Below are positions 9,350 to 37,044 of a stretch of DNA of 46,165 nucleotides, one piece after another. Source of the DNA: Alphaproteobacteria bacterium (GTDB taxonomy: Bacteria > Pseudomonadota > Alphaproteobacteria > Rhodospirillales > Magnetovibrionaceae); the NCBI GenBank assembly GCA_015231605.1, contig JADGBG010000012.1, positions 1 through 46,165 on the forward strand, given 5' to 3'. The position numbers were made by a program, and so were the translations under genes. The notes beneath the pieces are model-generated. The model saw nothing but the letters and a program-made list of their open reading frames with translations. It was not told where the DNA came from and made no database searches. Position 1 is the stretch's first letter. Every line of letters begins with the position of its first letter.

Positions 9350-10972
9350 CTATTTTTTTCCGGACTTCAGAAAGGGCAGCCGCCGTTTGAGCGCGTCGCC
9401 GATGCGGTGTTCGAATACGGTTTCCGCGATGTCGCCGCGTTTCCAGTTCCGAAATGTTCTGAGAATCCGTTTCGGATACAGGACGTAGCTCAAGAAATAG
9501 CAGCTGAGAATCAACAGCAACCGGTACACCGAAAGCTCGCGCGGCCCCATGTGTTCGTTGAAGGTCAGCGGGTTTAGGCTGAAATAATCGCTGTTGAGCG
9601 AAGTCAGCGCGAGGAAATACTTGTCGTTCACCTGCAACGCGCCGGACGCCTTCAGGGTCTGGAATATTTCGGAGCCGGGGTAGGGGGAAAAGATGTTGCT
9701 GGACACCTCGTCGACGCCCTTGGCCGCCATTTTCAGACCGAACCACGCCGTTTTCAACACGTCCAAGCGCGTTTCTCCCGGAAATCCGATGATCAGGTTG
9801 ATCCGCAGCACCAAACCCTGGCGGCGCGCCTCCATCACGGATTTCTCCAGATGCGGCAGCTTGACCTGTTTCTTGATGGCCTTCAACACGCGATCCGACC
9901 CGCTTTCCGGGGCGTAAACGAGATAATGACACCCCGTCTTTTTGATCAGCGACAGGGTTTCCTCATCCAGGATTTCGCTACGCGTGCCTTGCGGAACAGA
10001 CCATTTGAGATCGATCCCCTCTTCCAACAGACGCTGCCCGAATTCGAGGATCCATTTTTTCTTGGTGATGGCCGTCAAGTCGTACAACTGAACGCTGGTG
10101 ATGGCGTACTTGTCGACATACGCCTTGATTTCCCGGATCACGTCCTCGACACCGCGCAGCACGTAGCGGGTGGTCCACATGTTGGGCGAGGAGCAAAAGG
10201 CGCACTGGAACGGACACCCCCGGGAAATGGTCATCGGCATGTCGCGATCGGTCAGCACCCCCGCGGAACACCGGTCGGCCCAGAATTTTTCCAGATACCC
10301 TTCCGGCCAATGGGGCCAGGGCAGGGTGTCGGCGTCGCGCACCCGCGTCAGGGGCGAGGTTTGGCGAAACGCCCCCTCGTCGTCCAGGAACGCCACGCCG
10401 TCGACGGCTTCCAACGCGCTGCCAAGGCGCAGGGCCTCCAAGGTGTCGCACAGGATACGTTCGCCCTCGCCGCGCACGATCACGTCCAATCCCGGACAGT
10501 CGCGGAGCGAAAATTCCGTCAACGCGGTGACGTGCTCCCCACCCGCGATGACCAGGGCACCGGGAAAACGCGCACGCAACTTTGTGACCAGTTCGCGCGT
10601 GACGGGCCATTCTCCGGAAAACATGGCGTTGACGGCGATCACGCCGGTGTGCGTGGGAACGCGCGAAACGATTTCGTCCAACGTCAGTCCCTGGCACTGG
10701 TATCCGGGAAACGCGTCGAGGGGATGGAAACGGCCCAGGCCTTCGTATATGGCGTCCACCCAGGAAAAAGGATAGCCGGCTTGGTGGATCGCGGAGGACA
10801 GGTAAGCCAGGGAAATCGCCGGCACCGGCTCGTTGTTGACGGAGCCGAGGCTGGCGACGATCGGACCGCGAATGAACGTGACGTGGGGAAAAGCCCCCTG
10901 CCCTATCCATTCCACATGCAGCAACGATTTCAGTTTGCCCAAAACTCTGCCTCGACTATTGTCTGTGCTCAT
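9350..10972 (-). CDS. B12-binding-domain radical SAM protein 1
   Basis: The 540-residue protein has an N-terminal cobalamin-binding-type Rossmann domain (about 30-180, with AGGEHVT at 143-149 but no DxHxxG lower-ligand motif). A radical SAM domain follows with the cluster motif C253-x3-C257-x2-C260. The GGE-like APESGSDRVL and LIIGFPGET segments are typical of the BchE/P-methylase/MiaB-like superfamily. Such proteins perform methylations, ring closures or other radical reactions on unactivated carbon. Two further members lie at 14826 and 39023. The 3' end abuts the convergent methyltransferase. The reaction and substrate are unknown; a role in modifying the locus's glycan or lipid carrier is inferred from context only. 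Confidence 0.88.
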   Translation of the reverse strand: MSTDNSRGRVLGKLKSLLHVEWIGQGAFPHVTFIRGPIVASLGSVNNEPVPAISLAYLSSAIHQAGYPFSWVDAIYEGLGRFHPLDAFPGYQCQGLTLDEIVSRVPTHTGVIAVNAMFSGEWPVTRELVTKLRARFPGALVIAGGEHVTALTEFSLRDCPGLDVIVRGEGERILCDTLEALRLGSALEAVDGVAFLDDEGAFRQTSPLTRVRDADTLPWPHWPEGYLEKFWADRCSAGVLTDRDMPMTISRGCPFQCAFCSSPNMWTTRYVLRGVEDVIREIKAYVDKYAITSVQLYDLTAITKKKWILEFGQRLLEEGIDLKWSVPQGTRSEILDEETLSLIKKTGCHYLVYAPESGSDRVLKAIKKQVKLPHLEKSVMEARRQGLVLRINLIIGFPGETRLDVLKTAWFGLKMAAKGVDEVSSNIFSPYPGSEIFQTLKASGALQVNDKYFLALTSLNSDYFSLNPLTFNEHMGPRELSVYRLLLILSCYFLSYVLYPKRILRTFRNWKRGDIAETVFEHRIGDALKRRLPFLKSGKK

Positions 10973-11047
10973 GTCCGCGGCCCACGCAGGGGGCCGTCGG
11001 ACGGCACGGATTGTATAAAGCTTCCCGGGCGAAAACGATAGGGCACG

Positions 11048-12562
11048 ATGCGCATGCGGGACAATTTATCGCCGTATTCCCCACACCAAATCGCCCTGAG
11101 CATCGGCGTCTTGGTGGTGGTCGTCGTCAAAATCCTGTTGATCTGGCGCTACGCGCCGATGGCGATCGGGGACAACCAGGGCTACATCGATGCCGCCGCC
11201 GAGATTCTTTCGAGCAGCGCATGGCTGCATGACGCCGGGGTCGACGACAGCCCATATCCGCCCACGCTGTGGCGTCCTATCGGCTACTCCCTGATCGTCG
11301 CAGCCGCCAAGGCGGTGTTCGCCGATCATTGGTCGGTCGCGCTCGGCGTCCTGCAATCCACGCTCAGCCTGGTCACCGGGTTGTTTTTGTACCGGCTGTG
11401 TCTTCGGGCCAAACTGCACCCATACGCGGCGCTGGCCGTCTTCGTGCTGTATGAATGGTCCGCCCCCATGTCGACGGACGTTTTGATCATGGAGGACGCC
11501 CTCACCGGCGTCCTGGGCATGGCGGCCCTACTGGCGTTGCTGTTCCCCATCGTGGACAACCGAATTCCCGATGTTGGCCGGTTCGCCTTCGCCGGGTGCG
11601 TCACGGGCCTGGCCTTCTTCCTGCGCGATGTCTATCATTTCGTCATGCCCATTCTAGCGGTTCTGACCCTGATCGCGGTCGGCAGGGTCCGCGGGTGGAA
11701 AGCGGGCGCGTCGTCCGCCGCCGTTTTGATCGCACCCGTCCTGATCGCGTCGGCGTTGCTGCAGGGCTGGAATCTGCACCGCGCCGGCGCCCCCGTCACC
11801 GCGACCGCCGGGCAAAGCGCGTACCTGTTCGGAATGTTGCGCGCGGCGCGCTTTGACGACACCATCCTGTCCGGCGACGACGTCTTCCTGAAAACCGTTC
11901 GCCAGCACAACACGACGTATCAATATACGGACGTGGGCAAAATCACCATTGCCCTCTATGAAGAGCACGGCATGAATTCCATCGCGCAGTTGCGCGCCGC
12001 CAGCACGCTGTTTTGGCGCACCTTATTCACCAAACCGCTGCCCATGATCCGCGCCGCCCTGCACCGGGTGCGCCCGGTCCAGCAAGGCACGCTGTTTGCC
12101 GGACCCGTCACCCGCATCGATGATTTGGACTGGTGGGCCAACGCCGCCAACGCCGAAAAATTCTATAATCAGGGCTGGCGGGCCAAGGCCCAGAAGTTCC
12201 GCGAAACCCTCAATCCGGCGGACCTGACGCCGGAAGTCTTTTTGCATTTGTCCCTGCGCACGGTGCTGCGCGCCGTTGGCGTCGCCCTGTTGGCGGTCTT
12301 TTTGATCGGCGCGCCCTGGCTATGGCTGAAACGACGGGCCGAATTGGGCGGTCCGGCGCATTTCGTCATGACGACATGGGGGCTCTATGTCCTGTGGGTT
12401 TGCATGTACATCCCGGTCAGTTTCGAAGTGCGCTACCTTTCGCCGTTCGTCGGCCCCGTGCTGGTCGCGCTGGCCATCCTCGTACAGCATCGCGAGGCTT
12501 GGCTTCCGGCCCGTCTCAACGCGCTGTTCCATTTTCGCTTTCGTCGATCGTCGGCAGGCTGA
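11048..12562 (+). CDS. Polytopic membrane protein, GT-C glycosyltransferase-like
   Basis: The 504-residue protein has about 10 hydrophobic helices. After the first helix comes a loop with DNQGYIDAAAEIL and, later, YPPTLWRPIGYSL. This arrangement is reminiscent of GT39/ArnT-type GT-C transferases, in which acidic residues in the first periplasmic loop are catalytic. A second long periplasmic segment lies around residues 265-400. It would use a polyprenyl-phosphate sugar in the periplasm. It has only weak resemblance to the GT-C gene at 4615, so the two may add different residues. Its last 47 bases overlap the end of the convergent flippase-like gene. ATG 11054 is an equally possible start. Confidence 0.6.
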   Translation: MRMRDNLSPYSPHQIALSIGVLVVVVVKILLIWRYAPMAIGDNQGYIDAAAEILSSSAWLHDAGVDDSPYPPTLWRPIGYSLIVAAAKAVFADHWSVALGVLQSTLSLVTGLFLYRLCLRAKLHPYAALAVFVLYEWSAPMSTDVLIMEDALTGVLGMAALLALLFPIVDNRIPDVGRFAFAGCVTGLAFFLRDVYHFVMPILAVLTLIAVGRVRGWKAGASSAAVLIAPVLIASALLQGWNLHRAGAPVTATAGQSAYLFGMLRAARFDDTILSGDDVFLKTVRQHNTTYQYTDVGKITIALYEEHGMNSIAQLRAASTLFWRTLFTKPLPMIRAALHRVRPVQQGTLFAGPVTRIDDLDWWANAANAEKFYNQGWRAKAQKFRETLNPADLTPEVFLHLSLRTVLRAVGVALLAVFLIGAPWLWLKRRAELGGPAHFVMTTWGLYVLWVCMYIPVSFEVRYLSPFVGPVLVALAILVQHREAWLPARLNALFHFRFRRSSAG

Positions 12563-13529
12563 CGGCCTTGGGCCCCAGGTGCAGCATCACCTTGGACATC
12601 ACGCCGATGATCAGGATTGCCCCCAATTCCACCGCATGCATGGCCACGGCGGCGACGAGCGCTTCGTCCTCGCCCCGTCCGTGTTGCACCAGAAACAGCA
12701 CCACGGCGGCTTCGTAAAGTCCGAGGTTGCCGGGCGTCACCGGAAACAAACTGGCGAGGACGATCATCACCATCACCGTGGGGCCGGCCACCCATGTCAG
12801 TTCCGGAAAGAACGAGGCCAGAAACAGGGAGTATCCGCACGCCGCGGCACCCCAGATCAGTATGGTCAGAAGCGCCTGAACCAGGAATTCACGGCCCTCG
12901 CGGATCGCCGCCACGCCCCGCGACATCAATGCCAGCCGCGTCAGAAACCCGCTGTTGGCGCGCTCCGCCCACTGTTCAATCCAGCCATGCCAAGGCCTGA
13001 TGAACACCATCATGGCGCCATAGCCGACCATCCCCGCGAGCAACACCGCCGTGGCGGTGAACCGCATCCCCTGGGCCAACTGCGGTTGCGCCGCAACGAC
13101 CAGGGCCGCCGCCAACAACACCAAGGCAAGATCGTTGATCCGTTCCAGAACCTGAGCCCCCAGCGCCCCAAATCCCGGCCCGCCTTGGCGCTTGACCCAT
13201 ATCGGGCGGATGGATTCCCCCAACCGATACGGCAAAAACGCCGCCAAGAAAAACGACCAGCCGTAGACGCCCACCGCGACGGGCGTGGAAAGCGGAAAGA
13301 ACTGCGTCATCAGGCGGCGCCAACGCAAGCTTCGCAATATCGTGGCCATCACCATGCAAACGAAGAAAGCGAAAACCGCATCAAGGTGCTCGGGGTTGAA
13401 CGCCACCGCCCATTGATCCAGGCGCGGCCACTGATCCCACGCATACACGAATGCGGTCACCGTCAACGCCAGCAGAACGGCGGACAAGAACAAACCCAGG
13501 TGACGCCTGGAAGGTAATGAAGGCTTCAT
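12516..13529 (-). CDS. Flippase-like/LPG_synthase_TM (UPF0104) integral membrane protein
   Basis: The 337-residue protein has about eight hydrophobic helices and the family landmarks. These are RSLRWRRL near residue 67, FLPYRLGESIRPIWVKRQ near 95, LERINDLALVL near 127, and VTPGNLGLYEAAVVLFL near 270. The family includes the membrane half of lysyl-phosphatidylglycerol synthase and proteins tied to lipid-linked sugar transfer or flipping in archaea and bacteria. In a polysaccharide locus it may translocate lipid-linked intermediates or support a polyprenyl-phosphate glycosyltransferase. A related domain forms the N-terminal half of the protein at 19271-21466. The 3' end overlaps the convergent GT-C gene by 47 bases. 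Confidence 0.82.
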   Translation of the reverse strand: MKPSLPSRRHLGLFLSAVLLALTVTAFVYAWDQWPRLDQWAVAFNPEHLDAVFAFFVCMVMATILRSLRWRRLMTQFFPLSTPVAVGVYGWSFFLAAFLPYRLGESIRPIWVKRQGGPGFGALGAQVLERINDLALVLLAAALVVAAQPQLAQGMRFTATAVLLAGMVGYGAMMVFIRPWHGWIEQWAERANSGFLTRLALMSRGVAAIREGREFLVQALLTILIWGAAACGYSLFLASFFPELTWVAGPTVMVMIVLASLFPVTPGNLGLYEAAVVLFLVQHGRGEDEALVAAVAMHAVELGAILIIGVMSKVMLHLGPKAVSLPTIDESENGTAR

Positions 13530-13686: not shown

Positions 13687-14775
13687 ATGCACAATCGCCC
13701 CAATAAAAAGATCGTTTTCTGGTTCGTCCTGTCCCTGATCCCCGTGGTGTTCTGCCTGGCCGTGCTGGAAGGCTGGTACGCCTATGGCAAATGGACCTTC
13801 ACGTCCCACTTCTGCTCCCGGTTTTCTCAGCTCGACGATGAAATCGGCTGGACGCACAAACCCAACGTCAGCAGTTGCATGGGAACGCACGGAAAGTTCA
13901 TTCGCAGCCACGTATACCACGAAAGCCCCGTGTTTACCGACGTGAATGGGTTTCGAAGCGCCGAGCCCGGCGGAGAAAGCGCCAAAAACGCGGTGATGTT
14001 CATCGGCGATTCCCATACCTTCGGCTACATGGTGCCCTATGAGGATTCCTTCCCCGGCTGGTACGGCAGGCTGACCGGCCAACCGGTGGTCAATCTCGCC
14101 AGCCCAGCATACAGCAGCGCCCAAGCCATCCTCATGGCGCGGCGATGGGTCGATGAACTGGCGCCCAAGGCGCTGGTTTATTTCGACATGGGGTTTTGGG
14201 AACGCGGGGTCTGCACCGGTTCGGCGCGCCCCACGGCGATCCTGAAACCCTGTTATTGGGTGCGCCCCGGCCAGGAAACGGAACTGATCTTGCCGCCCGC
14301 CGGTCACGTCCGATCCATGGCGCGGTTCGGATTGCGTCCCGGCGGCATGGTGGGCGCCGGCGAGGACACCTGGTCCTATTTCCTGATCTCAAGACCGGTT
14401 TCCAAAATTCGCCAGATGTTCGTGCGTCTGGGTCTGGCGAGCGGCATGGGCAACGATTTCAGATCCACCGCGCAAGATTCCAAAGTCGTCCCCCACGCGG
14501 TGATGTTGGATTTGCTGACCATCGCCGCCCACCGCAAAATTCCCCTGGTATTCGTGGAGGCCCGTGAAAATTACACGGAAATCCTCAACCAAATCGATCC
14601 GCGTCTGCGCAAATGGCTCATCTTCATTGACTTCCCGACCTGGCAGGGCAAGATCGTGGAGGTGGCCGAACATCTTCCCGAGGGTCAATTCATCGTGCCG
14701 CATGACGGGCACTACGCCTCGGGGACCTACAAATTGCTCGCCGAATTGATCGCATCCAGACTGCCTCTCCAATAG
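13687..14775 (+). CDS. SGNH/GDSL-hydrolase-like protein with N-terminal membrane anchor
   Basis: The 362-residue protein has one N-terminal hydrophobic helix (about 9-28), so the main domain should face the periplasm. The SGNH block I is FIGDSHTFG, with the candidate nucleophile Ser109. The C-terminal block is HDGHYASGTYKLLAE, providing the Asp and His of a catalytic triad. Proteins of this type in exopolysaccharide loci act as O-acetyl transferases or esterases on the glycan. It heads a plus-strand run with a radical SAM protein, an AsnB and a GT2. The fold assignment is from motifs; whether it acetylates or deacetylates is not decided. Confidence 0.78.
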   Translation: MHNRPNKKIVFWFVLSLIPVVFCLAVLEGWYAYGKWTFTSHFCSRFSQLDDEIGWTHKPNVSSCMGTHGKFIRSHVYHESPVFTDVNGFRSAEPGGESAKNAVMFIGDSHTFGYMVPYEDSFPGWYGRLTGQPVVNLASPAYSSAQAILMARRWVDELAPKALVYFDMGFWERGVCTGSARPTAILKPCYWVRPGQETELILPPAGHVRSMARFGLRPGGMVGAGEDTWSYFLISRPVSKIRQMFVRLGLASGMGNDFRSTAQDSKVVPHAVMLDLLTIAAHRKIPLVFVEARENYTEILNQIDPRLRKWLIFIDFPTWQGKIVEVAEHLPEGQFIVPHDGHYASGTYKLLAELIASRLPLQ

Positions 14776-14825
14776 CCGGACCGAATACGTTTGGAACTTT
14801 GCAACGAAATTGCTATCTGGATCCC

Positions 14826-16367
14826 ATGCGCAAGAAACACGTCATCATGGTTTACCCGTATCAGGGTTTTTCCGGCACGTACGCCAAGCACATGCCGTTG
14901 AGCCTGTTGTACGCCTCCGCCGAACTGGTCAAGGCGGACTACGACGTGGTGATCCTGGACACCCGCGTCACGCCCGGCGACTGGCGCAAAAAGCTGACGG
15001 ACCTGATTGACGCAGACACGCTGTGCGTCGGCGTCAGCGCCATGTCCGGCGCGCCGATCGGTCATGCCCGGGAAATCGGGCGCATCGTCAAGGCGGCGAA
15101 TCCCGGCGTGGCGGTGGTGTGGGGCGGGCCGCACGCGACCTTTTATCCCGAATCCATTCTGCGCGACGAATGGAGCGCCGACTACGCCGTCAGCGGTTAT
15201 GCCTCGAAGATCTTCCTCGATTTGTGCGAGGCCCTGAGGGAAGGCCGCCGGCCCGTCGACATTCCCGGCATCACATGGCGCGACGGCGATCGCATTCACG
15301 TCAATGGCGGCAACGACAAATCGTTCGAATACATCGATTACCGCGACATCCCCTATCACCTGATCGAGGACTACAGCCCCTACGGCCAGCTTGACCAGGA
15401 CCGGCGGATCTTTTCCATGTACAGCGCCCTGGGCTGTCCCTACCAATGCACCTTCTGTTCGTCGCCCGCGCAGTACGCGACCATCGACGGCAAGAAATGG
15501 GTGGCGCTGAAAACGATTGAGGTCGTCGACCACATCGAGCACGTGGTGAAAACCTACGGCGCCAATTACATCTATTTCATCGACGACGACAGCTTCCCGA
15601 GCCTCAAGCACGTCGAGGACATCATCGACGCCATCCATGAACGCAAGCTGCCGGTCAAACTGGGTTTTCGCGGGGCGCGCATCAACGAAATCAAGAAAAT
15701 GTCGGACGCGTACCTTGCCAAGCTGGCCCGGGCGGGCACCGACATCATGCACATCGGCGCGGAATGCGGGTCGGACCGGCTGCTGCAACTGCTCAAGAAG
15801 AATTGCACCGTCGACGACATCGTCGAATGCAACCGCAAATTGGCCCGGCATCCGGAAATCACCGCCGCCTACAACTTCATCATGGGCCTGCCAACGGAAA
15901 CCCTGAACGAACTCAAGTCGACGCGGGATCTGATGCTGCGCCTGGTCGACGACCACCCCAACTGCCTGATTTTCCCGCCCAACAAGTTCCGTCCCTTGCC
16001 GGGAACTGAATTGTATGAAGTGGCGCAGAAGGAGTGGGGGTATTCCATGCCCAACACGCTGGACGCCTGGTCGGCAATCGAGGTCGAGGGGGAAATTTCC
16101 GACCAATGGTACGAAAAAGGCATGGCGGAATTCTGCAATCTGATGCTGATCAGTTCGTACTTCATCGACAACAAGGTCGAGAACCTCACCGAAGGCACGA
16201 CCCTGTTCTACAAGGTGCTGCGCCTGATCAACAAACTGTACCGCCCGATCGCGCGCTATCGTCTGCAAAACGGCTTGACCCAGGTGCTGGTCGAATACTG
16301 GGCCTATCGCGTGCTGACGGGCGTGCTGTCGAAACTTCAGGCCCGGTTCAACAGGATCAGCGCCTGA
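14826..16367 (+). CDS. B12-binding-domain radical SAM protein 2
   Basis: I chose ATG 14826 (MRKKHVIMVYPYQG, 513 residues); the frame also opens at TTG 14799. The N-terminal domain resembles B12-binding Rossmann folds, with the segment WGGPHATFYPE near residues 99-109. It is followed by C204-x3-C208-x2-C211 of the radical SAM cluster and by GAECGSDRLLQLL and FIMGLPTET. The family carries out difficult C-centred chemistry using S-adenosylmethionine and often cobalamin. It is the second gene of the SGNH-rSAM-AsnB-GT2 module; 67 bases separate it from asnB 2. It is only distantly similar to the copy at 9350, so recent duplication is unlikely. The substrate is unknown. Confidence 0.88.
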   Translation: MRKKHVIMVYPYQGFSGTYAKHMPLSLLYASAELVKADYDVVILDTRVTPGDWRKKLTDLIDADTLCVGVSAMSGAPIGHAREIGRIVKAANPGVAVVWGGPHATFYPESILRDEWSADYAVSGYASKIFLDLCEALREGRRPVDIPGITWRDGDRIHVNGGNDKSFEYIDYRDIPYHLIEDYSPYGQLDQDRRIFSMYSALGCPYQCTFCSSPAQYATIDGKKWVALKTIEVVDHIEHVVKTYGANYIYFIDDDSFPSLKHVEDIIDAIHERKLPVKLGFRGARINEIKKMSDAYLAKLARAGTDIMHIGAECGSDRLLQLLKKNCTVDDIVECNRKLARHPEITAAYNFIMGLPTETLNELKSTRDLMLRLVDDHPNCLIFPPNKFRPLPGTELYEVAQKEWGYSMPNTLDAWSAIEVEGEISDQWYEKGMAEFCNLMLISSYFIDNKVENLTEGTTLFYKVLRLINKLYRPIARYRLQNGLTQVLVEYWAYRVLTGVLSKLQARFNRISA

Positions 16368-16434: not shown

Positions 16435-18336
16435 ATGTGCGGCATCGCCGGCATCGTTTCTTTCAGACCCGGCGCGCCCACGGCGCCGTCCGACGCCATC
16501 GCGGTGATGACCGACATTCTGGCGCATCGCGGCCCGGATGACCGGGGCGTATGGTCGGGCGACGGCGCGCACCTCGGCCACCGCCGGCTGAGCATCATCG
16601 ACCGTGAACACGGACATCAGCCCATGCGCGGCGACGCGGGCCGCGTGATCGTGTTTAACGGGGAAATCTACAACTACCGGGAAATCCGCGAGACGTTGCA
16701 GGCCAAGGGACGCCGTTTTTCCACCGACACGGACACCGAAGTTCTGCTCCACGCTTTCGCCGAATGGGGGGAGGAGTGCGTCGAACGGTTCAACGGCATG
16801 TTTGCGTTCGCCATCTGGGACCAGGAGCGCAGAAAACTTTTCATCGCCCGCGACCGGCTCGGCAAAAAGCCCTTTTTCTATTATTGCGGCGCGGATTTCT
16901 TTGCCTTCTCCTCGGAGATGAAGGCACTGCTGACCATCCCCGAGGTCAAGGAGCGGGTGGAAATCGATCCCCGCGCGTTGAGCGACTACCTGTCGCTGGG
17001 CTACATCCTCAGTCCCAAAAGCATCTTCAGGCCCATTCTCAAGCTGCCCCCGGCAACCCTTGGCTGGGTCTGTCCCGAGAGCGCGCGGCTGACCACCCGG
17101 CGCTATTGGATGCTGGAGGATTTTTACCTCGCTCCCAAACATCCCGATAGCCCCGAGACCGAAGCGCGGTTCGCGGAGTTGTTCCACGACGCTGTGAAAA
17201 TCCGCATGCATGCCGACGTGCCGCTCGCGGGGTTTCTGAGCGGCGGCATCGATTCGGCCGCCGTGCTTTCGGCGATGATGAAGGAAAGTCCGGAGACGAC
17301 GCGGGGCATCTGCATGGGGTTCGCCGAGCGCAGTTTCGACGAAACCGCCCGCGCGCGCGTCACCGCCGGGCACCTCGGCGCGCCGCTGGACACGCTGGAC
17401 CACCGCCATACCAACAAGGAGGGCTTGGCGCACCTGATCTGGCACATCGACGAACCGTTCGCCGACACATCCATGCTGCCGACGTTTCAACTGTGTCAAA
17501 CGGCGAAGGAACGCATTACCGTGGCGCTGTCGGGGGACGGGGCCGACGAGATTCTGGCCGGATATTCGATCTACAAGGCGGATGCCCTTTATGACCGTTA
17601 CCGTCATTTGCCCATGGCGGTGCAGCGGATGCTCCTGGCCGGGGCCCGTAAATGGCTGCGCCCAAGCTATCGCAAGGTCAGTTTCGATTACAAGGCGCGC
17701 CAGTTTCTGGGTTCGGTCGGAATGTCCCGGCGCGAAGCGCATTATTGGTGGCGCAACATCTTCTCCGAAACGGAAAAGTGCCAGCTCCTGTCGCGGGAAC
17801 TGTTGGAGGAGATCGGGGACTACACCCCGTTCCAGGTTTTCGACCAATATCACGACCGCGTGGCGGAGGCGGGGTTCCTCGACCAATGTCTTTACGTCGA
17901 TGCGCAGACGTGGCTGGTCGACGACATCCTGGTCAAGACGGACCGCATGAGCATGGCCAATGGGCTGGAGGTCCGCTCGCCGTTCCTGGATTACCGTCTG
18001 GTGGAATTCGCCGCGCGTCTGCCGCTGCACCTGAAATTCGACGGAACGACGTCGAAGGTCTTGATGCGCCGCGCGTTCCGGGACGTTTTGCCGCGCAAGA
18101 CCATCACGGGACCCAAGCGTGGATTCAATGCGCCGGTGAAAAAATCGGCGCGCCTGAATCTCAAGGACCGCCACGACCGCGCCTTGTTCAACCCGGACTT
18201 CACCTTGCATCCGGACAAGGAGGACGTGACGTTCAAATCATTTGTGTTGAGTGGATTGGACGCCTGGATGAGAATGGAGCGCCATTACACCTTTTCGAGC
18301 AGTTGGACACATGACGTCAAAGACCATGCCGAGTAA
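16435..18336 (+). CDS. asnB: Asparagine synthase (glutamine-hydrolysing) type amidotransferase 2
   Basis: The 633-residue protein starts MCGIAG, so the Cys2 glutaminase nucleophile is exposed once Met1 is removed. HRGPDD is at 31-36, FNGEIYNY at 74-81 and the ATP PP-loop SGGIDS at 269-274. The synthetase half keeps ALSGDGADEILAGY and LVKTDRMSMANGLE. It should hydrolyse glutamine and transfer ammonia to an ATP-activated carboxylate. The next GT2 gene starts 26 bases inside this gene's 3' end, so the two are coupled. Its place in a glycan module argues for a sugar or lipid-linked acceptor, but no residue visible here proves that. Confidence 0.9.
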   Translation: MCGIAGIVSFRPGAPTAPSDAIAVMTDILAHRGPDDRGVWSGDGAHLGHRRLSIIDREHGHQPMRGDAGRVIVFNGEIYNYREIRETLQAKGRRFSTDTDTEVLLHAFAEWGEECVERFNGMFAFAIWDQERRKLFIARDRLGKKPFFYYCGADFFAFSSEMKALLTIPEVKERVEIDPRALSDYLSLGYILSPKSIFRPILKLPPATLGWVCPESARLTTRRYWMLEDFYLAPKHPDSPETEARFAELFHDAVKIRMHADVPLAGFLSGGIDSAAVLSAMMKESPETTRGICMGFAERSFDETARARVTAGHLGAPLDTLDHRHTNKEGLAHLIWHIDEPFADTSMLPTFQLCQTAKERITVALSGDGADEILAGYSIYKADALYDRYRHLPMAVQRMLLAGARKWLRPSYRKVSFDYKARQFLGSVGMSRREAHYWWRNIFSETEKCQLLSRELLEEIGDYTPFQVFDQYHDRVAEAGFLDQCLYVDAQTWLVDDILVKTDRMSMANGLEVRSPFLDYRLVEFAARLPLHLKFDGTTSKVLMRRAFRDVLPRKTITGPKRGFNAPVKKSARLNLKDRHDRALFNPDFTLHPDKEDVTFKSFVLSGLDAWMRMERHYTFSSSWTHDVKDHAE

Positions 18337-19270: not shown

Positions 19271-21466
19271 TCAAGGGGACTTGGTCGAAGGTTCCTCTCC
19301 CGGCTGGAGCACCCAGCGGCTCGACGCCAGCAAACCGATGAAGAACCACAACGCCCGCTGATAATAGATTTCGTGGAACAGCGAAAACGAAAACGCCCCC
19401 AGCAAACACAGCAACAGGGCGGCGTCTTCCCATGCCACCCGGCGCAGGCCGTTGCGCGCCGCGTACGACACCAGCGCGACCGGCAGGAACAGCCACATCA
19501 TCAAACCCACGCCCCCCATTTCCGCCATCACCCACAGAACCGTGTTGTGAATCACCAAGGGGTGGTCCTGGCTGCTGATGAACGCGCCCAACCCGCCTCC
19601 GAACAACGGGTTTTCCCGCCACATCCGGAGCGCGCCGATGTAGCTGTAGATGCGTTCGTATTGCATCTCCAGCATATCGATATTCGCCAGATGCCCCACC
19701 AAGTTCTGATCTCTGGGCGTTGAGTGGACCATCCGGGCGATGGGTTCCATCAGGACGTGTCCGCCCCACTCAATCGTCACGAAGAGCGCGACAAGTCCGA
19801 CGACCCTGAGAACGGATCGCCATTCGATGGTCCGAAGAACGAAAGCCGCGGCGCTCATCAGCGCAATGGCCAGAATTCCCGAACGCGACCCCGAGGCGAG
19901 AATCAAAAACGCCACGCCGGCAAGGGCCATATCCCTGATCAGGGACTTCGATGATCGCGGCGCGGAAATCAGCACCGCGAACACCATCACCATCTGAAAG
20001 GCGAAGGCGTTTCTGTTGAAGGCGAGCCCGGAGAACTGATGGGGATACCAGTTCATCCCTTCGTTCCAATTGAACGGGTAAATCTGAAGATTGAGCGCGA
20101 TCCAAAACAGAAGATAGGCCGTGGCGCTGATGAAGAACATCACCCGCAGAACCACGAAAATACTCCGGCGACCAAAAAATGCGGTGAACATCGCGCCGGA
20201 AGCCAGGTAGGACATCACGAACACCAACCCAAATCCCCGGTTGACGCTCGCCCAGGACCCCGAACCATAGCTCGCAAATCCCCACAGCCAGCCAAGCAGA
20301 ATCATCGCGGCGAAAAGACCCAGGCCGAGAGACATGTACGGGATGCGCCAAATGGCATTGCCCTTGTGCCAAAAATACCAAAACGCCATGAACGTCAAAC
20401 CGCCGATCAAGGCGAAGGGATCGGCCAAGTTGACGGTCATCTTGCTGGTCGCCGTGGCGATCTGGGTCTGACTGCCGATCAGCAACGCCACCGCGGTGCC
20501 ACAGATGAACGCGATCAGCCTTTCGAAATGGAATTTTTCGTGTCCTTCGGAAGATTTGGCGAAAGACGTCACCTTCTCGTTCTTCAGCACGGTGGTGCAA
20601 AGCAGCCCATGAGCCACCACCGCAAGCAGGGAAATCACCCCGACCAGCCCCGCCACGACCACCCCAATGGCCGGGTCCAGGGACAAGGTCGAAAACACGA
20701 AACCGGCCGTCAGTTCACGCACCCCCCACCCCGCAAAGCTGATGGGAAAGGCCGCCCCCAACATCACCACCGTAAACGCGGCGGTCAGCAAGGGCAGGGA
20801 GACTTCCGGCAAAAACGCATGCGCGATCAGAACGTAGCCGGCCAGAGTCAGCCCATGCACGACGGCGCTCGTCAAGGTGATGAAGCCGAAACGGACCTTA
20901 AGCACGAGCGCGAACGAGCGGCGCAGATAACGGCGCTCGCTCGGCGTCATGCCGCGCATCCCGATGGGTACGAGGCTGATCGCCACGGCCGTCAAGATCG
21001 TCAGGATCGGCCCCAATGATACCAGGTCGACATGGATCGTGTGCACGATGCTGAAGGCGCCGACGATGGCGATCACGAACAGACTGAGAAACGAGGCACC
21101 CTTTTCCAGGAAGGTCAGCAACACCATGCGCTGCGGATTGGCGGTGTAGAACGAACTGATCCCGGCGCGGGATATCACCTGCCCCAGCGTCTGAAACATC
21201 ACGATCCCGGAGACGTAGGACATGATGTTGATGAAATGCGCCGATTTGAAGGACAGCGAAAATGCGAATTGCCGGGTCAGGGCGTAAAAACGATAGCTCG
21301 CCACGACGAACGAGGCGAAAATCGCCAACGCCGGCAGCATCAGATGGGATGCGCTGATCCGGCTCAGGGTCTCGGCGATATATCCCTCTGGGATATAGGC
21401 ATAGACGACCCCCAGCAGCAGCAACGAGATGATGTGTTTTACATACGTCCTCTGCATCACCAGCAC
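19271..21466 (-). CDS. Flippase-like (LPG_synthase_TM) and O-antigen-ligase-like fusion membrane protein
   Basis: This 731-residue protein is about twice the length of either component family. Residues 1-300 look like an LPG_synthase_TM/UPF0104 domain: ASFVVASYRFYALT near 51, FLEKGASFLSLF near 119, and the hallmark PISFAGWGVREL at 241-252. A hydrophilic linker near 297-313 follows. The C-terminal 400 residues are polytopic and end with a Wzy_C/WaaL-like loop, ENPLFGGGLGAFISSQDHP then VIHNTVLWVMAEMGGVGL. One chain would therefore join a putative lipid-linked-sugar handling domain to a polymerase or ligase in the inner membrane. The reading frame is continuous with no sign of a frameshift. It is the last gene of the long minus-strand run. 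Confidence 0.8.
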   Translation of the reverse strand: MLVMQRTYVKHIISLLLLGVVYAYIPEGYIAETLSRISASHLMLPALAIFASFVVASYRFYALTRQFAFSLSFKSAHFINIMSYVSGIVMFQTLGQVISRAGISSFYTANPQRMVLLTFLEKGASFLSLFVIAIVGAFSIVHTIHVDLVSLGPILTILTAVAISLVPIGMRGMTPSERRYLRRSFALVLKVRFGFITLTSAVVHGLTLAGYVLIAHAFLPEVSLPLLTAAFTVVMLGAAFPISFAGWGVRELTAGFVFSTLSLDPAIGVVVAGLVGVISLLAVVAHGLLCTTVLKNEKVTSFAKSSEGHEKFHFERLIAFICGTAVALLIGSQTQIATATSKMTVNLADPFALIGGLTFMAFWYFWHKGNAIWRIPYMSLGLGLFAAMILLGWLWGFASYGSGSWASVNRGFGLVFVMSYLASGAMFTAFFGRRSIFVVLRVMFFISATAYLLFWIALNLQIYPFNWNEGMNWYPHQFSGLAFNRNAFAFQMVMVFAVLISAPRSSKSLIRDMALAGVAFLILASGSRSGILAIALMSAAAFVLRTIEWRSVLRVVGLVALFVTIEWGGHVLMEPIARMVHSTPRDQNLVGHLANIDMLEMQYERIYSYIGALRMWRENPLFGGGLGAFISSQDHPLVIHNTVLWVMAEMGGVGLMMWLFLPVALVSYAARNGLRRVAWEDAALLLCLLGAFSFSLFHEIYYQRALWFFIGLLASSRWVLQPGEEPSTKSP

Positions 21467-26914: not shown

Positions 26915-28036
26915 TTACGCCTGTTGCTCCAAAACGTGAAGCAAAAGCTGATGCGTATCCCGCGCCCGGGCGCGCCAGGAATGCTCCTCGACCGCGACGC
27001 GGCGGGCGTTTTCGCCCATTTCCCGGCGCTTTTGCGAATCCTTCGCCAGTTCGGCGACGCACGCCGCCAACCCGGCGGGATCGCCCGGGGGGACAACGTA
27101 GCCGCAAGCGCCACCCCGGACAACCTCCGCCTGGAACGGCATCTCGGTGGCGATCACCGGCACCCCCGACGCTAGGCTTTCGAACAGCTTCAACGGAGCT
27201 AGGCCGGTGCTGGCCCGCCCTTCCAGGTTTTCCGTGCACACGAACGCCCCTTCCGCCCGCGCCACCACGGCGGGCAGGGATTCGTAAGGCACGCGGCCCA
27301 GGTAATGGGCGTGGCCGAGCCGGGCGCACACGGCTTCCACCGCCGGGCGCTCCACCCCGTCGCCGGCGAACACGGCGTGCACGTCCTTGGGCCATACATC
27401 CTCATCCAGGGCGGCCAAAACGGTGCGGATTCCCTGCCACGGTGCCATGGTTCCGAAAAACACAATGAACCGGCCGGGAAGGTCGCGGGTATTGTCGTTG
27501 CCGATCTTGGCGGCGTTCGGGGAAAACAGGTCTGTGTTGGCCCCGTTGGGGATGGTGGCGACGGTTTTTTCCGGCCCGGCGATTGTTCGGCACATGCCCT
27601 GAAGGCCATCGGTGACGGCAACCACGGCGGATGACCACCGCAACTGAACCGTCATGATCCATGTGAACACGGTTCTCATCCGCCGGGTAATCGGCCAGGC
27701 GATGAACAGATCGTCGACAGGGCCATTCACCTCGATCACCATCGGAATTCGACGCAACCTGCCCCACAGCGCCACGGGAAAGGATGCCGGATGCCAGCGC
27801 ATGTAATACGCGTCGGGGCGCGTCGCCAAGATCGCGCGCAGGATGGTCGCGAGAATCCCCCAAAGGCGATGCAGCACCCCCGGCAACCGGCTACCGTCAT
27901 ATTGGGGGCTATACAAATCCACGCTCCACCCCTCTTGCCCAAGACCGTTGATGATTTCGTGGACGTGAGTGAAGGAGGCATGGCCCTGGCGCTTGGGCTC
28001 CGGGCTGAAGTACATCAGCTTGCGCGATGCGCTCAT
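26915..28036 (-). CDS. Family 4 glycosyltransferase (GT-B)
   Basis: The true start is ATG 28036 (MSASRKLMYFSPEP), giving 373 residues; the longer open frame upstream is a shadow of asnB. The GT-B C-terminal domain shows FVCTENLEG, then LFESLASGVPVIATEMP with the donor-binding Glu, and GYVVPPGDPAGL. GT4 enzymes transfer a sugar with retention from a nucleotide donor on the cytoplasmic face. The start overlaps the asnB 3 stop by ATGA, so an amidotransferase and this transferase are made together. A 57-base gap separates its stop from the wbpB start. The sugar is not identifiable. Confidence 0.88.
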   Translation of the reverse strand: MSASRKLMYFSPEPKRQGHASFTHVHEIINGLGQEGWSVDLYSPQYDGSRLPGVLHRLWGILATILRAILATRPDAYYMRWHPASFPVALWGRLRRIPMVIEVNGPVDDLFIAWPITRRMRTVFTWIMTVQLRWSSAVVAVTDGLQGMCRTIAGPEKTVATIPNGANTDLFSPNAAKIGNDNTRDLPGRFIVFFGTMAPWQGIRTVLAALDEDVWPKDVHAVFAGDGVERPAVEAVCARLGHAHYLGRVPYESLPAVVARAEGAFVCTENLEGRASTGLAPLKLFESLASGVPVIATEMPFQAEVVRGGACGYVVPPGDPAGLAACVAELAKDSQKRREMGENARRVAVEEHSWRARARDTHQLLLHVLEQQA

Positions 28037-29958
28037 GGATCGAACCTCACATCGTAAAGCGCGGCCCAACGCGCCAGATTGACCCAGCGCCATACGTCCC
28101 CGGTCAAGCGCCTGCCGCCGGATCGAACCGCCTCGATTTCCTGGCTCATGGCGCGCGAATCGAAGGCGGGAATCGCGTTCATCATATCGCTCGACAGCAC
28201 GCCGTCCAACCATTCTCCCGCCTCCGCCAGCCACGTTTCCTCGGGCGCGGCGAAACCGATCTTGTCGCGGCGGTCCAGGATCGCGTCCGGAGCCAATCCG
28301 CGCGCGGCCCGGCGGAACACGGCCTTGGTCACGCCTTGATCCGATATCAGGAACGCCTCGGGCAGGCTGTATAGGAATTCGACCAAGGCCGTGGTCAGGA
28401 ACGGCACCCGGCTTTCCACCGAATGGGCCATGGAATTGCGGTCCTGATAGCGCAGCAGGGACGGCAGGACCCGGTCGGTGAGGCTCTCCGCCAGCTCATG
28501 GCGGAGCACGTCCCCTCGCACCGGCTTTTGCGGAGCGACGGGGCGCACGCCCTGCCTGGCGAACCACGACACGTCCATCCAGCCCGGCATTAGCCCTTCC
28601 CCCACCAGGCGCCGCGCGGGGCCTTGCAGGGCCTGGGGCAGCACGAACCGCATGGCGCGGAGCGCGACGCCCGTCTTTGCGTCGAGACCGCGCCAAAACC
28701 GCAGCGCGCGGCCCCATTCCCCGTCCTGCGCCATGGTCGCCAGCCGCGCCGCCAGGAACGGGGTGTAACCGGCCAAAATCTCGTCCGCGCCCTGGCCGTC
28801 CAGCGTAACCTTGATGCCGTTTTGCCGCGCCAGGGCGAACACCCGGTTTTGCGCGAAGATCGAGGTGCTGCCGAACGGTTCGCCCTGGGTCGCGATCAGG
28901 GCGTCCAGGCCGTCCACCAATTGCCGGCCGGTAAGGCTGACCTTGTGTGGCGTGGCATGGGCGGCATCGGCCGCCATGTCGGCCCAGGCCTCTTCATTGA
29001 TGTTCGATCCCGCGGCGACGAAGGTGAAGGTGTGCAGATCCAATCCGTCCCCTTCCAGCGCGCGCATGGCGCCGACCACGGCGGAACTGTCGATGCCCCC
29101 CGACAACGCCGCGCCCACCGGAACGTCGGAACGCAGGTGCAGGCGCACGCTGTCCAGGAACAACCGGCGCAGCTCGGTTGCCGCCTCGTCGAATCCGATG
29201 TCCAGGGTCGGGCCGAGTTCCGCGCGCCAATAGCGCCGGGGCACAATCTGATCCGGCCGGGTCAGGTCCACCACCGCGAAATGCGCGGGCGGAAGATGTT
29301 CGATGCCCGCGAACAGGGTGCGCGCGCCCCGGTCCGTCAGACCGAAGCGCAGATAATCGTAGAGCGCGGAGGGCTCCACCCGGCGACTGACGCCGGATAC
29401 GCAGAGCAGCGAGGCGATTTCGGATGCGAACGCCAAGCCGCCCTTCACGCGGGCATAGCTCAATGGCTTGATGCCGAACGGGTCGCGCGCCAGGGTGAGG
29501 GTGCGGTTCGCCGTGTCCAGAAGGGCGAAAGCGAACATGCCGGTGAGACGGGGCAGCGCCCTTTGCACGCCCCACTTGGCCAGGGCCTGGAGCAGAACCT
29601 CGGTGTCGGAATGGGTGGCGAAGGCAACGCCCTCGCCCTGCAACTCCGCCTTCAGTTCGAGGTAATTGTAGATTTCGCCGTTGAATACGATGGCGAAGCG
29701 GCCGTCGGCGGTGGCCATCGGCTGCCAGCCGCCCTCGCCCTCGTCGATGATGCTGAGGCGGCGATGCGCCAGGGCGAGGCTGGCTTCGCCGACGGCTTCG
29801 AGCGGATCGCGGGACAGGGCTACTCCGGCCTCCGGGCTCCATCCCAGGTATCCCAGGTCGTCCGGCCCGCGATGCTCCATCGCCCCCGACATCAGCTTGA
29901 TGTCCAAGGCCGCCACCGTGCGCCCCGACGGCGCGATGATCCCCGCGATCCCGCACAT
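28033..29958 (-). CDS. asnB: Asparagine synthase (glutamine-hydrolysing) type amidotransferase 3
   Basis: The start is ATG 29958 (MCGIAG, 641 residues), which exposes the required Cys2; the upstream extension of the frame would bury it. HRGPDD lies at 29-34, FNGEIYNY at 92-99 and SGGIDS at 286-291. LDGQGADEILAGY and RYQDRNSMAHSVESRVPF are conserved synthetase segments. It is sandwiched between two GT4 genes (4-base overlap on one side, 2-base gap on the other). This intimate pairing with glycosyltransferases fits amidation of a sugar carboxyl. The synthetase segment has LDGQGADE where other copies have SGDGADE, a small difference in the ATP/substrate loop. Confidence 0.9.
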   Translation of the reverse strand: MCGIAGIIAPSGRTVAALDIKLMSGAMEHRGPDDLGYLGWSPEAGVALSRDPLEAVGEASLALAHRRLSIIDEGEGGWQPMATADGRFAIVFNGEIYNYLELKAELQGEGVAFATHSDTEVLLQALAKWGVQRALPRLTGMFAFALLDTANRTLTLARDPFGIKPLSYARVKGGLAFASEIASLLCVSGVSRRVEPSALYDYLRFGLTDRGARTLFAGIEHLPPAHFAVVDLTRPDQIVPRRYWRAELGPTLDIGFDEAATELRRLFLDSVRLHLRSDVPVGAALSGGIDSSAVVGAMRALEGDGLDLHTFTFVAAGSNINEEAWADMAADAAHATPHKVSLTGRQLVDGLDALIATQGEPFGSTSIFAQNRVFALARQNGIKVTLDGQGADEILAGYTPFLAARLATMAQDGEWGRALRFWRGLDAKTGVALRAMRFVLPQALQGPARRLVGEGLMPGWMDVSWFARQGVRPVAPQKPVRGDVLRHELAESLTDRVLPSLLRYQDRNSMAHSVESRVPFLTTALVEFLYSLPEAFLISDQGVTKAVFRRAARGLAPDAILDRRDKIGFAAPEETWLAEAGEWLDGVLSSDMMNAIPAFDSRAMSQEIEAVRSGGRRLTGDVWRWVNLARWAALYDVRFDP

Positions 29959-29960
29959 GG

Positions 29961-31037
29961 CTAACGCACCAACGCCTTCATGCGGGCCTCGACCAGGCGC
30001 GCCTGGGTTTCGAAATCCGCCTTGTCGCGCACCAGCGCCATGCCCCGACCGGACAGGCGGGCACAGAGCTCCGCGTCGTTCAACAGCGCCATCACGGCCC
30101 CGGCCACGGCGCCGGGCTCGGGCTTCGCGAACCACGCGGTTTCGCCGTGGGTGAACAACGCCTTGAAGCGCTCCAAGTCGGTCAGCACCACCGGCGCGCC
30201 GCAGGCCATCGCCTCCATCACCGATTGGGGCGTGCCGTCGCTGGGCGGCAGGCTCAATACCACGTCGGCGGCGCTGTAGCTGGCGGCCATTTCGGCGGTG
30301 CTCACGGCCGGGACGAAGATCACGCGATCCGCGACGCCCAACGCTTGCACCTTGTCCTCGACCTTGGCGCGGTAGGCGGCGTCTTCGTTATACGTGCTGA
30401 TCACCAGCGTGACGCCGGGAACCCGCGCCAGGGCCTCGACCATCACCATTTGGTTATAAAGCGGCTTGAGCATGCGCGGACTGAACGCCACCCGGTCGTC
30501 CACGGACACGCCCCATTCGGCGCGGCGGCGCGCAGCGCCATCCGGGTCGGGGCGAAACAACCGCGCATCCACCCCCCACACCACGTCGAGGATGCGCTCG
30601 CGCGCCACGCCCCAGCGGGCCACGACCTCTCCCAGCATCGGCGATTTGACCGTCACCAGATCCGCGCCCAACACCGCGCGCCGTGTCAGCCAGCGGCCGA
30701 TGGGGCCGAGGGACCCTTGCTCGTCGAACAGCACGTCGCCGCCCATCACCGTGATCACCAGGGGCCGCTTGCCCAACAGCCACGCCATCCAGGTCGTCAG
30801 TTCGGCGGCATAGTGGGCGTGGTACACGTCGGCGCGGGCGGCCTTGACCGCCCCGAACACGGCTTTCAGCCATCCCAGACGCCCCCGCCCCTGGCGCGCG
30901 CAGGTGACGACGGGCAGACCCTGGGCGTCTCCCGGCGCAGGGGTGATCAACGTCACCGCGTGGCCGAAATCCGCGAACACCTTGGCCCGTGCGACAACGT
31001 GGGCGCTGGTGGCGGCGCCGAGCGCGCAAATCTTCAC
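29961..31037 (-). CDS. Family 4 glycosyltransferase (GT-B)
   Basis: I place the start at GTG 31037 (VKICALGAATSAHV, 358 residues). It overlaps the asnB 4 stop as GTGA and puts the first strand at the N-terminus; the longer frame upstream is a shadow. GT-B features are YHAHYAAELTTW and TVMGGDVLFDE in the N-domain and SPRMLKPLYNQ. The donor-site segment MEAMACGAPVVLTDLERF and then THGETAWFAKPE follow. It should add one sugar of the repeat unit in the cytoplasm. It is flanked on both sides by AsnB genes. It is only family-level similar to the GT4 at 26915. Confidence 0.88.
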   Translation of the reverse strand: MKICALGAATSAHVVARAKVFADFGHAVTLITPAPGDAQGLPVVTCARQGRGRLGWLKAVFGAVKAARADVYHAHYAAELTTWMAWLLGKRPLVITVMGGDVLFDEQGSLGPIGRWLTRRAVLGADLVTVKSPMLGEVVARWGVARERILDVVWGVDARLFRPDPDGAARRRAEWGVSVDDRVAFSPRMLKPLYNQMVMVEALARVPGVTLVISTYNEDAAYRAKVEDKVQALGVADRVIFVPAVSTAEMAASYSAADVVLSLPPSDGTPQSVMEAMACGAPVVLTDLERFKALFTHGETAWFAKPEPGAVAGAVMALLNDAELCARLSGRGMALVRDKADFETQARLVEARMKALVR

Positions 31038-36943: not shown

Positions 36944-37044
36944 GCTAGTGCACTGACTCTGGCAGAAGGTTCACCGGAAACCTATTCACATCAATATGTT
37001 GACCATGTAATTGGTGAATATTCTGTTTCTGTCAGTGCACTAGC
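36944..37044. mobile_element. Candidate MITE with long imperfect terminal inverted repeats and TA flanks
   Basis: GCTAGTGCACTGAC at 36944-36957 is perfectly repeated in inverse orientation at 37031-37044. The arms continue imperfectly inward (CAGAAGGTTCACC on the left against CAGAATATTCACC read from the right, 11 of 13 equal). Between TA dinucleotides at 36946-36947 and 37041-37042 the element is 93 bases and codes for nothing. TA duplication and such ends fit IS630/Tc1-mariner-derived MITEs. It also supplies part of the stop codon of the gene at 37040-38998. A simple large hairpin terminator is an alternative reading. Confidence 0.6.

Follow-up and report, generated by a model that had tools for sequence, protein, structure and literature searches.

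A single reading frame joining an MprF-type lipid transport domain to a WaaL/Wzy-type glycan transferase domain in an alphaproteobacterial surface-sugar locus

The window analyzed here, a stretch of 46,165 nucleotides, is contig C49 of an alphaproteobacterial genome of 3.18 Mb (213 contigs, 99.2% completeness). It is a surface-sugar locus that encodes GT2 and GT4 enzymes, sugar-nucleotide enzymes, methyltransferases, and a PMT_2 protein, together with the following genes:

19271..21466, minus strand: whole fused gene, one open frame of 731 aa with a GTG start at 21466, the stop at 19271, and an in-frame ATG at 21457
12516..13529, minus strand: stand-alone LPG_synthase_TM protein (P0002), PF03706, 91.9 bits
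7148..8494, minus strand: stand-alone Wzy_C protein (P0003), PF04932, 57 bits, the genome's only Wzy_C match besides the fusion
867-2774, 16435-18333, 28036-30135, and 31037-32971: four asparagine-synthase-like proteins of the sugar locus
9350-10969, 14799-16364, and 39026-40675: three B12-binding radical SAM proteins of the sugar locus

Three long open reading frames (11048-12559, 13687-14772, and 37043-38998) gave no Pfam match at E 0.001. The initial annotation of this DNA had described P0002 and P0003 as stand-alone relatives of the two halves of the fused gene, and their Pfam scores confirm both. The source genome holds three LPG_synthase_TM matches, two of them within the window, and two Wzy_C matches, both within the window. 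The third LPG_synthase_TM protein, at 11723-12595 of contig C184, is the genome's strongest at 150.3 bits.

The continuous frame that had been claimed for the fused gene was borne out; it is open from the GTG at 21466 to the stop at 19271 and lies on the minus strand, which had not been given before. Its parts are as follows:

20558..21466, minus strand: N-terminal MprF-type lipid transport domain (LPG_synthase_TM / UPF0104 / "PplT"), residues 1-303, identified by a Pfam match at 20609-21430 and a fold match to MprF
20711..20746, minus strand: PISFAGWGVREL signature, residues 241-252, the motif of the N-terminal half
20528..20584, minus strand: interdomain linker, residues 295-313, with 4 K/R among its 19 residues
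19310..20533, minus strand: C-terminal WaaL/Wzy-type glycan transferase domain, residues 312-719, identified by a Pfam Wzy_C match at 19490-19924 and a fold match to WaaL 7tpg
19883..19885, minus strand: R528, aligned to WaaL Arg191
19652..19654, minus strand: R605, aligned to WaaL Arg265
19547..19549, minus strand: H640, aligned to WaaL His313, the proposed acceptor-activating residue

When the whole chain was searched with Pfam, PF03706 (LPG_synthase_TM) matched residues 13-286 at 37.1 bits (cut-off, 33.4), and PF04932 (Wzy_C) matched residues 515-659 at 44.5 bits (cut-off, 31.7). No other Pfam family appeared up to E 1, a range in which PF09924, the C-terminal aminoacyl-PG synthase domain of MprF, was likewise absent. 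The chain has no Pfam match to PF01943, PF13440, or PF03023 and so does not qualify as a Wzx or MOP flippase. A search of NCBIfam returned nothing meaningful for it. The K/R content of the linker is what would be expected of a cytoplasmic loop, given the inferred topology.

Full-length one-frame homologues were found in 10 of 385 genomes of the class and in at least 5 of 398 genomes of the phylum, the latter count being a lower bound as no more than two candidates were scored per genome. In the family, the fusion occurred in 1 of 18 genomes, the window's own. An alignment-query scan of species representatives (84,980 species, one genome per species) found 72 related loci; these class, phylum, and species-representative surveys overlap in part. 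Complete one-frame fusions made up 60 of the 72 loci, and 6 further fusions were cut by contig ends. The remainder comprised a locus cut inside the ligase half (L083), a split pair (L084), a ligase half alone (L057), and flippase halves alone (L090-L092). Judged by record title, the carriers are Alpha-, Beta-, and Gammaproteobacteria (Thalassospira, Afipia, Ferrovibrio, Pseudolabrys, Thiobacillus, Castellaniella, Pseudomonas, and others) plus one Mesoflavibacter, and the presence of the fusion across taxa is patchy. Scans of species-representative and viral contigs with the single protein, a method sensitive to close kin only, found no relative, and neither did a tblastn search of plasmids. 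With 60 complete one-frame homologues in separate records, we reject an assembly or sequencing artefact that joined two genes as practically inconceivable.

From these loci we built an alignment of 58 fusions, consisting of the window protein and 57 of the 72 loci. It omits three proteins longer than 860 aa (L037, L074, and L087), seven loci cut by contig ends (L023, L065, L069, L077, L078, L082, and L083), the split pair L084, the ligase-only L057, and the flippase-only L090-L092. The window protein and its 57 homologues served as input for AlphaFold2, which yielded a confident model of the fused protein (pLDDT 87, pTM 0.89). In a fold comparison, the N-terminal half matched MprF structures (PDB 6lvf, 7duw, 9goe, and 9j8s) with Z scores of 17.2-21.4 across 264-285 residues. 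The top match was 6lvf (Z 21.4, 277 residues), and 9j8s matched with Z 19.7 across residues 2-298; the comparison yields first and last aligned residues only, and some MprF alignments extend to residue 360-363, past the domain. The MprF relation comes from the fold alone; sequence comparison aimed at the MprF gate residues gave no alignment, and the weak debrominase matches it returned were taken as chance. Because the modeled fold matches MprF, the identity of the predicted flippase half is no longer in doubt, despite a weak Pfam match lying 3.7 bits over the cut-off. The C-terminal half (residues 312-719), which was checked by fewer fold alignments than the N-terminal half, matched WaaL 7tpg with Z 21.2 (338 residues aligned to a 403-residue chain; Foldseek E 1.5e-5). 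The SEDS proteins FtsW and RodA were further fold matches (Z 11.9-14.2), and MFS transporters also appeared at Z ~5-6, which is under the meaningful level for helical bundles.

A sequence profile of the 58 fusions, compared with PDB sequences, likewise matched WaaL (E 5.7e-7) and paired its R191, R265, and H313 with R528, R605, and H640. The sole other match of this profile was a plant subunit at E 2, a chance level, and a profile from 10 fusions had no match among PDB sequences. Arg191 and Arg265 of WaaL bind diphosphate, and His313 is proposed to activate the acceptor (PMC10920833). Thus, R528, R605, and H640 supply the two diphosphate arginines and the acceptor-activating histidine that characterize WaaL-type enzymes. 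H640 is kept as His in 57 of 58 fusions; R605 is Arg in 50 of 58 and His in 7, and R528 is Arg in 47 of 58. Two fusions fall below the Pfam Wzy_C cut-off of 31.7 (L037 at 26.6 bits and G766 at 21.3 bits). Because the WaaL residues are conserved, the C-terminal half looks like a working ligase-type enzyme. In place of the His313 of WaaL, the SEDS proteins carry Asp, and in polymerase families belonging to this clan the residue is mostly Glu or Asp (PMC10920833); a His at this position in the fusions would favor ligase-type transfer over classical polymerization.

The initial annotation had assigned the N-terminal half to LPG_synthase_TM/UPF0104 by its PISFAGWGVREL hallmark and the C-terminal half to the Wzy_C/WaaL type, and had proposed an HMM search of both halves, a structure prediction, and a survey of other genomes as checks. 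Both assignments held: the motif lies at residues 241-252, both halves exceed their Pfam cut-offs, and the model has an MprF fold (Z 21.4) and a WaaL fold (Z 21.2). The survey, which took in the neighbors as well, agreed, with the complete fusion in one frame at 60 of 72 related loci.

The two halves appear to share a history. Across 62 fusions, their distance matrices correlate with r 0.837 (0 of 2,000 permutations reached this value), 34 of 62 fusions share their nearest row between the two halves, and the ligase-half and flippase-half trees, which are quick trees without bootstrap, have many groups in common. Mean identity within the halves is 0.27 and 0.30, a similar depth of divergence. 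Agreement of this kind between matrices would be expected of jointly inherited halves, and it is silent on function. Two loci hold the halves as separate genes: in the split pair at L129:8688-10888 (G419), the flippase gene lies directly upstream with a 4-base overlap, and at L084:5009-7320, two adjacent genes overlap by 4 bases. These two pairs and the ligase-only L057 are all nested within the fused clade of the ligase tree, and thus the joined state is older than the L129 and L084 splits and the L057 loss. Altogether, these data demonstrate one continuous chain that has both folds, conserved WaaL catalytic residues, and halves that were inherited together.

Other rows of the trees bear separate mention. 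L057:8192-9565, a ligase half alone in the fusion clade, has a MurJ-profile gene at 10594-11973 of its locus. The ligase-only L014 and L018 form a pair (99) that groups with the fusion L030 (81), on branches flagged as long. The record of L074 (CP051228.1) is titled Mesoflavibacter (Bacteroidota); its ligase half, however, falls in a starred group of 9, of which 7 rows are alphaproteobacterial, and its GT4 part, described below, shares 52% identity with the GT4 parts of L037 and G396, so that a mistitled bin is possible. Its flippase half lies in a starred mixed group of 29.

The frame is longer in three genomes, where it continues past the ligase half into a GT4 glycosyltransferase as a third domain. 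L037:9830-13195 (1,122 aa) and L074:9698-13183 (1,162 aa) have a GT4 part recognized by Pfam, and G396 (L009 and L130) has the same three-domain layout in 1,100 aa, with its GT4 part assigned by similarity. Identity among the three GT4 parts is 50-52%. Compared with the genes called across the surveyed loci, each is closest to the same family, whose members are separate genes in Beta/Gamma-type loci. A cytoplasmic C terminus, as the inferred topology has it, would suit an enzyme that uses nucleotide sugars.

The neighborhoods of the fusion were surveyed by a crude ORF rule, with few genes given to Pfam and many loci cut by contig ends, and the counts are therefore approximate. Of the 72 loci, 16 have an asparagine-synthase-like gene no more than 9 kb from the fusion. 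One GT4 family is found within the same distance in 16 of 72 loci and directly downstream of the fusion in 11 of 66. Several Beta/Gamma loci have the gene order AsnB-like, fusion, GT4, epimerase, Glycos_transf_4, with a Polysacc_synt_2 protein present. Seven Thalassospira and Afipia loci have no recurring sugar-gene cluster within 9 kb of the fusion.

The initial annotation had also stated that no Wzx or ABC exporter was visible. This stands for the window contig, which has no match to PF01943, PF13440, PF03023, PF01061, or PF00664. Genome-wide, six ABC_membrane (PF00664) proteins exceed the cut-off, all on other contigs and in frames of 566-688 aa. MsbA and PglK are members of this family, and a PglK-type or other ABC flippase of lipid-linked sugars is possible in the source genome. 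Two ABC2_membrane genes also exceed the cut-off. Judged by eye, the neighbors of one are RecX- and cytochrome-b-like frames and those of the other form a nos-type operon, and because of such neighbors neither gene looks like an O-antigen exporter. The only MOP-type match of the source genome is one gene on contig C69, which scores 382.7 bits as MurJ; against PF01943 it reaches 27.1 bits, below the cut-off, and against PF13440 it reaches 23.7, just above the cut-off of 23.

Other carriers differ in this respect: at least 8 of 31 distinct carrier genomes (G661, G767, G768, G769, G777, G779, G780, and G567) have a MOP flippase no more than 25 kb from the fusion. The 31 genomes correspond to 32 handles, G669 and G773 being one by identical coordinates, and the count is a lower bound because the PF03023 search covered 21 of the 32 handles and contigs were often short. 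Five loci (L045, L046, L051, L086, and L131) carry a MOP flippase gene in the locus itself. MurJ-profile proteins of ~430-440 aa in sugar loci, at L045:1792-3087, L051:4875-6200, L086:4010-5308, and L131:14745-16037, may act as Wzx. Counting the fusion itself, between 2 and 7 Wzy_C matches at E 0.001 were obtained for every one of the 32 handles; in G777, those other than the fusion are below the cut-off. Since MOP flippases occur this close to the fusion in 8 of 31 carriers, the fused domain does not in general replace Wzx, and a simple Wzx replacement as a general rule is weakened.

We give an even chance to a reading in which the fused protein is a two-domain inner-membrane enzyme whose N-terminal half delivers a lipid-linked donor glycan to the tethered ligase. 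The N-terminal half, a predicted MprF-type lipid transport domain, would be the passive route by which the lipid-linked glycan leaves the cytoplasmic leaflet for the periplasmic one and, being tethered, would hand it to the C-terminal half. The latter, a putative glycosyltransferase of the WaaL/Wzy/SEDS kind (clan GT-C1), which would use undecaprenyl-diphosphate-linked sugars at the periplasmic face, would then transfer the glycan to an acceptor on that side. In the three-domain carriers, with GT4 at the C terminus, making, flipping, and transferring the glycan would take place in one chain. Such a coupling of delivery to ligation would fit the anatomy of the protein and a published idea: PaMprF, which needs no energy source, scrambles many lipids, and in its authors' proposal selectivity comes from proximity to the fused enzyme (PMC11980842). 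PF03706 proteins have also been predicted to be glycosylation flippases in archaea (PMC5898192). In the source organism, with MurJ as the only MOP-type flippase found, good candidates for the export flippase are the fused domain and its stand-alone relatives, and the GT4 fusions together with the lone MurJ favor donor delivery. Several observations count against it: L057 stands without an N-terminal half among fusions, 11 of 58 fusions lack R528 and 8 lack R605, two fusions lie under the Wzy_C cut-off, and seven loci are without recurring sugar-gene clusters. A bolder version, which we regard as rather unlikely, would make the protein a self-contained machine that replaces Wzx, with the MprF-type scramblase passing undecaprenyl-diphosphate-linked glycans to the tethered ligase and, where GT4 is present, one polypeptide making, flipping, and attaching the glycan. 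If true, glycans would be exported in this way with neither a MOP nor an ABC flippase.

The MOP flippases near the fusion in 8 of 31 carriers mean that donor delivery may already be provided in some of them, and these genes, together with the ABC proteins of the source genome, leave room for two further roles of the N-terminal half. In one, the half would return spent undecaprenyl-(di)phosphate from the periplasmic side to the cytoplasmic leaflet while Wzx or another flippase supplies the donor. The flippase genes just named indicate that donor delivery can be separate, and the MprF domain could work in either direction because it is a passive, promiscuous scramblase (PMC11980842). We nevertheless consider such carrier recycling unlikely, as the only MOP-type match of the source genome is MurJ and a GT4 fused on the same chain fits outward delivery better. 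In the other, the lipid that the N-terminal half brings to the periplasmic face would be the acceptor, a phospholipid or a glycolipid, to which the C-terminal half would ligate a glycan, yielding a lipid-anchored polysaccharide. This role agrees with the phospholipid transporters that are the structural relatives of the N-terminal half and with the WaaL-type histidine (H640), typical of ligases, which use a lipid-anchored sugar as acceptor; the donor could be supplied through the Wzx-type gene that some loci have. WaaL-type acceptors, however, are normally moved by other systems, and delivery of the acceptor seems improbable to us.

The N-terminal half might also have no transport activity now and merely act as a scaffold or regulator of the ligase. 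The similar depth to which the two halves diverge and the dropping of the N-terminal half in L057 agree with this reading, but the conservation of the half speaks against it. P241, G246, W247, G248, R250, and E251 are invariant across 58 of 58 fusions, R59, R100, and E121 are almost so, and R59, R100, P241, G248, and E251 are common to the fusions and four aligned stand-alone members. We therefore hold the scaffold or regulator role to be quite unlikely. RtMprF has a gate salt bridge, Glu280-Arg304 (PMC8131360); sequence comparison gave no alignment to MprF that would place the invariant E251 of the fusions relative to it.

To return to delivery of the donor, PF03706 proteins are widespread and, MprF apart, we know of few with a known substrate. 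The version welded to a ligase, with relatives that act on polyprenyl-linked glycans, makes it testable whether an MprF-type domain moves glycan-carrying polyprenyl lipids. If it does, a flippase family would be added to surface-polysaccharide assembly, which could explain genomes, like the source genome, where no Wzx is found, and would show a promiscuous scramblase gaining specificity from its partner.

The fusion kind is already known, since one clause of PMC11980842, citing Hauser et al. 2022 (bioRxiv), names "PplT," the MprF transport domain, fused to O-antigen ligase, and the present protein is a member. As far as that clause allows a comparison, the same two domains are joined in one protein; here, both lie in one continuous frame that is conserved across species. 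In the available parts of the literature on the fusion, its domains, and the WaaL residues, no paper described this protein or the split or three-domain forms, which the cited preprint may do. The fusion family, the split forms, the catalytic residues, and the GT4 extension were worked out here.

Among known systems, MprF shares the fold of the N-terminal half, whereas the partner in the fused protein is a glycan ligase instead of an aminoacyl-PG synthase. The WaaL O-antigen ligase (PDB 7tpg; CAZy GT121) shares the fold, two arginines, and histidine of the C-terminal half, and the fused protein differs in its extra transport domain. The SEDS polymerases FtsW and RodA (GT119) are more distant fold matches to the C-terminal half and have Asp where the fusions have His (PMC10920833). 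Finally, the AglD-type archaeal fusion of a glycosyltransferase and UPF0104, as PMC5898192 presents it, also joins a PF03706 domain to a sugar enzyme of a glycosylation pathway; there, the partner is a cytoplasmic glycosyltransferase, whereas here it is a membrane ligase, to which a glycosyltransferase has been added in three genomes.
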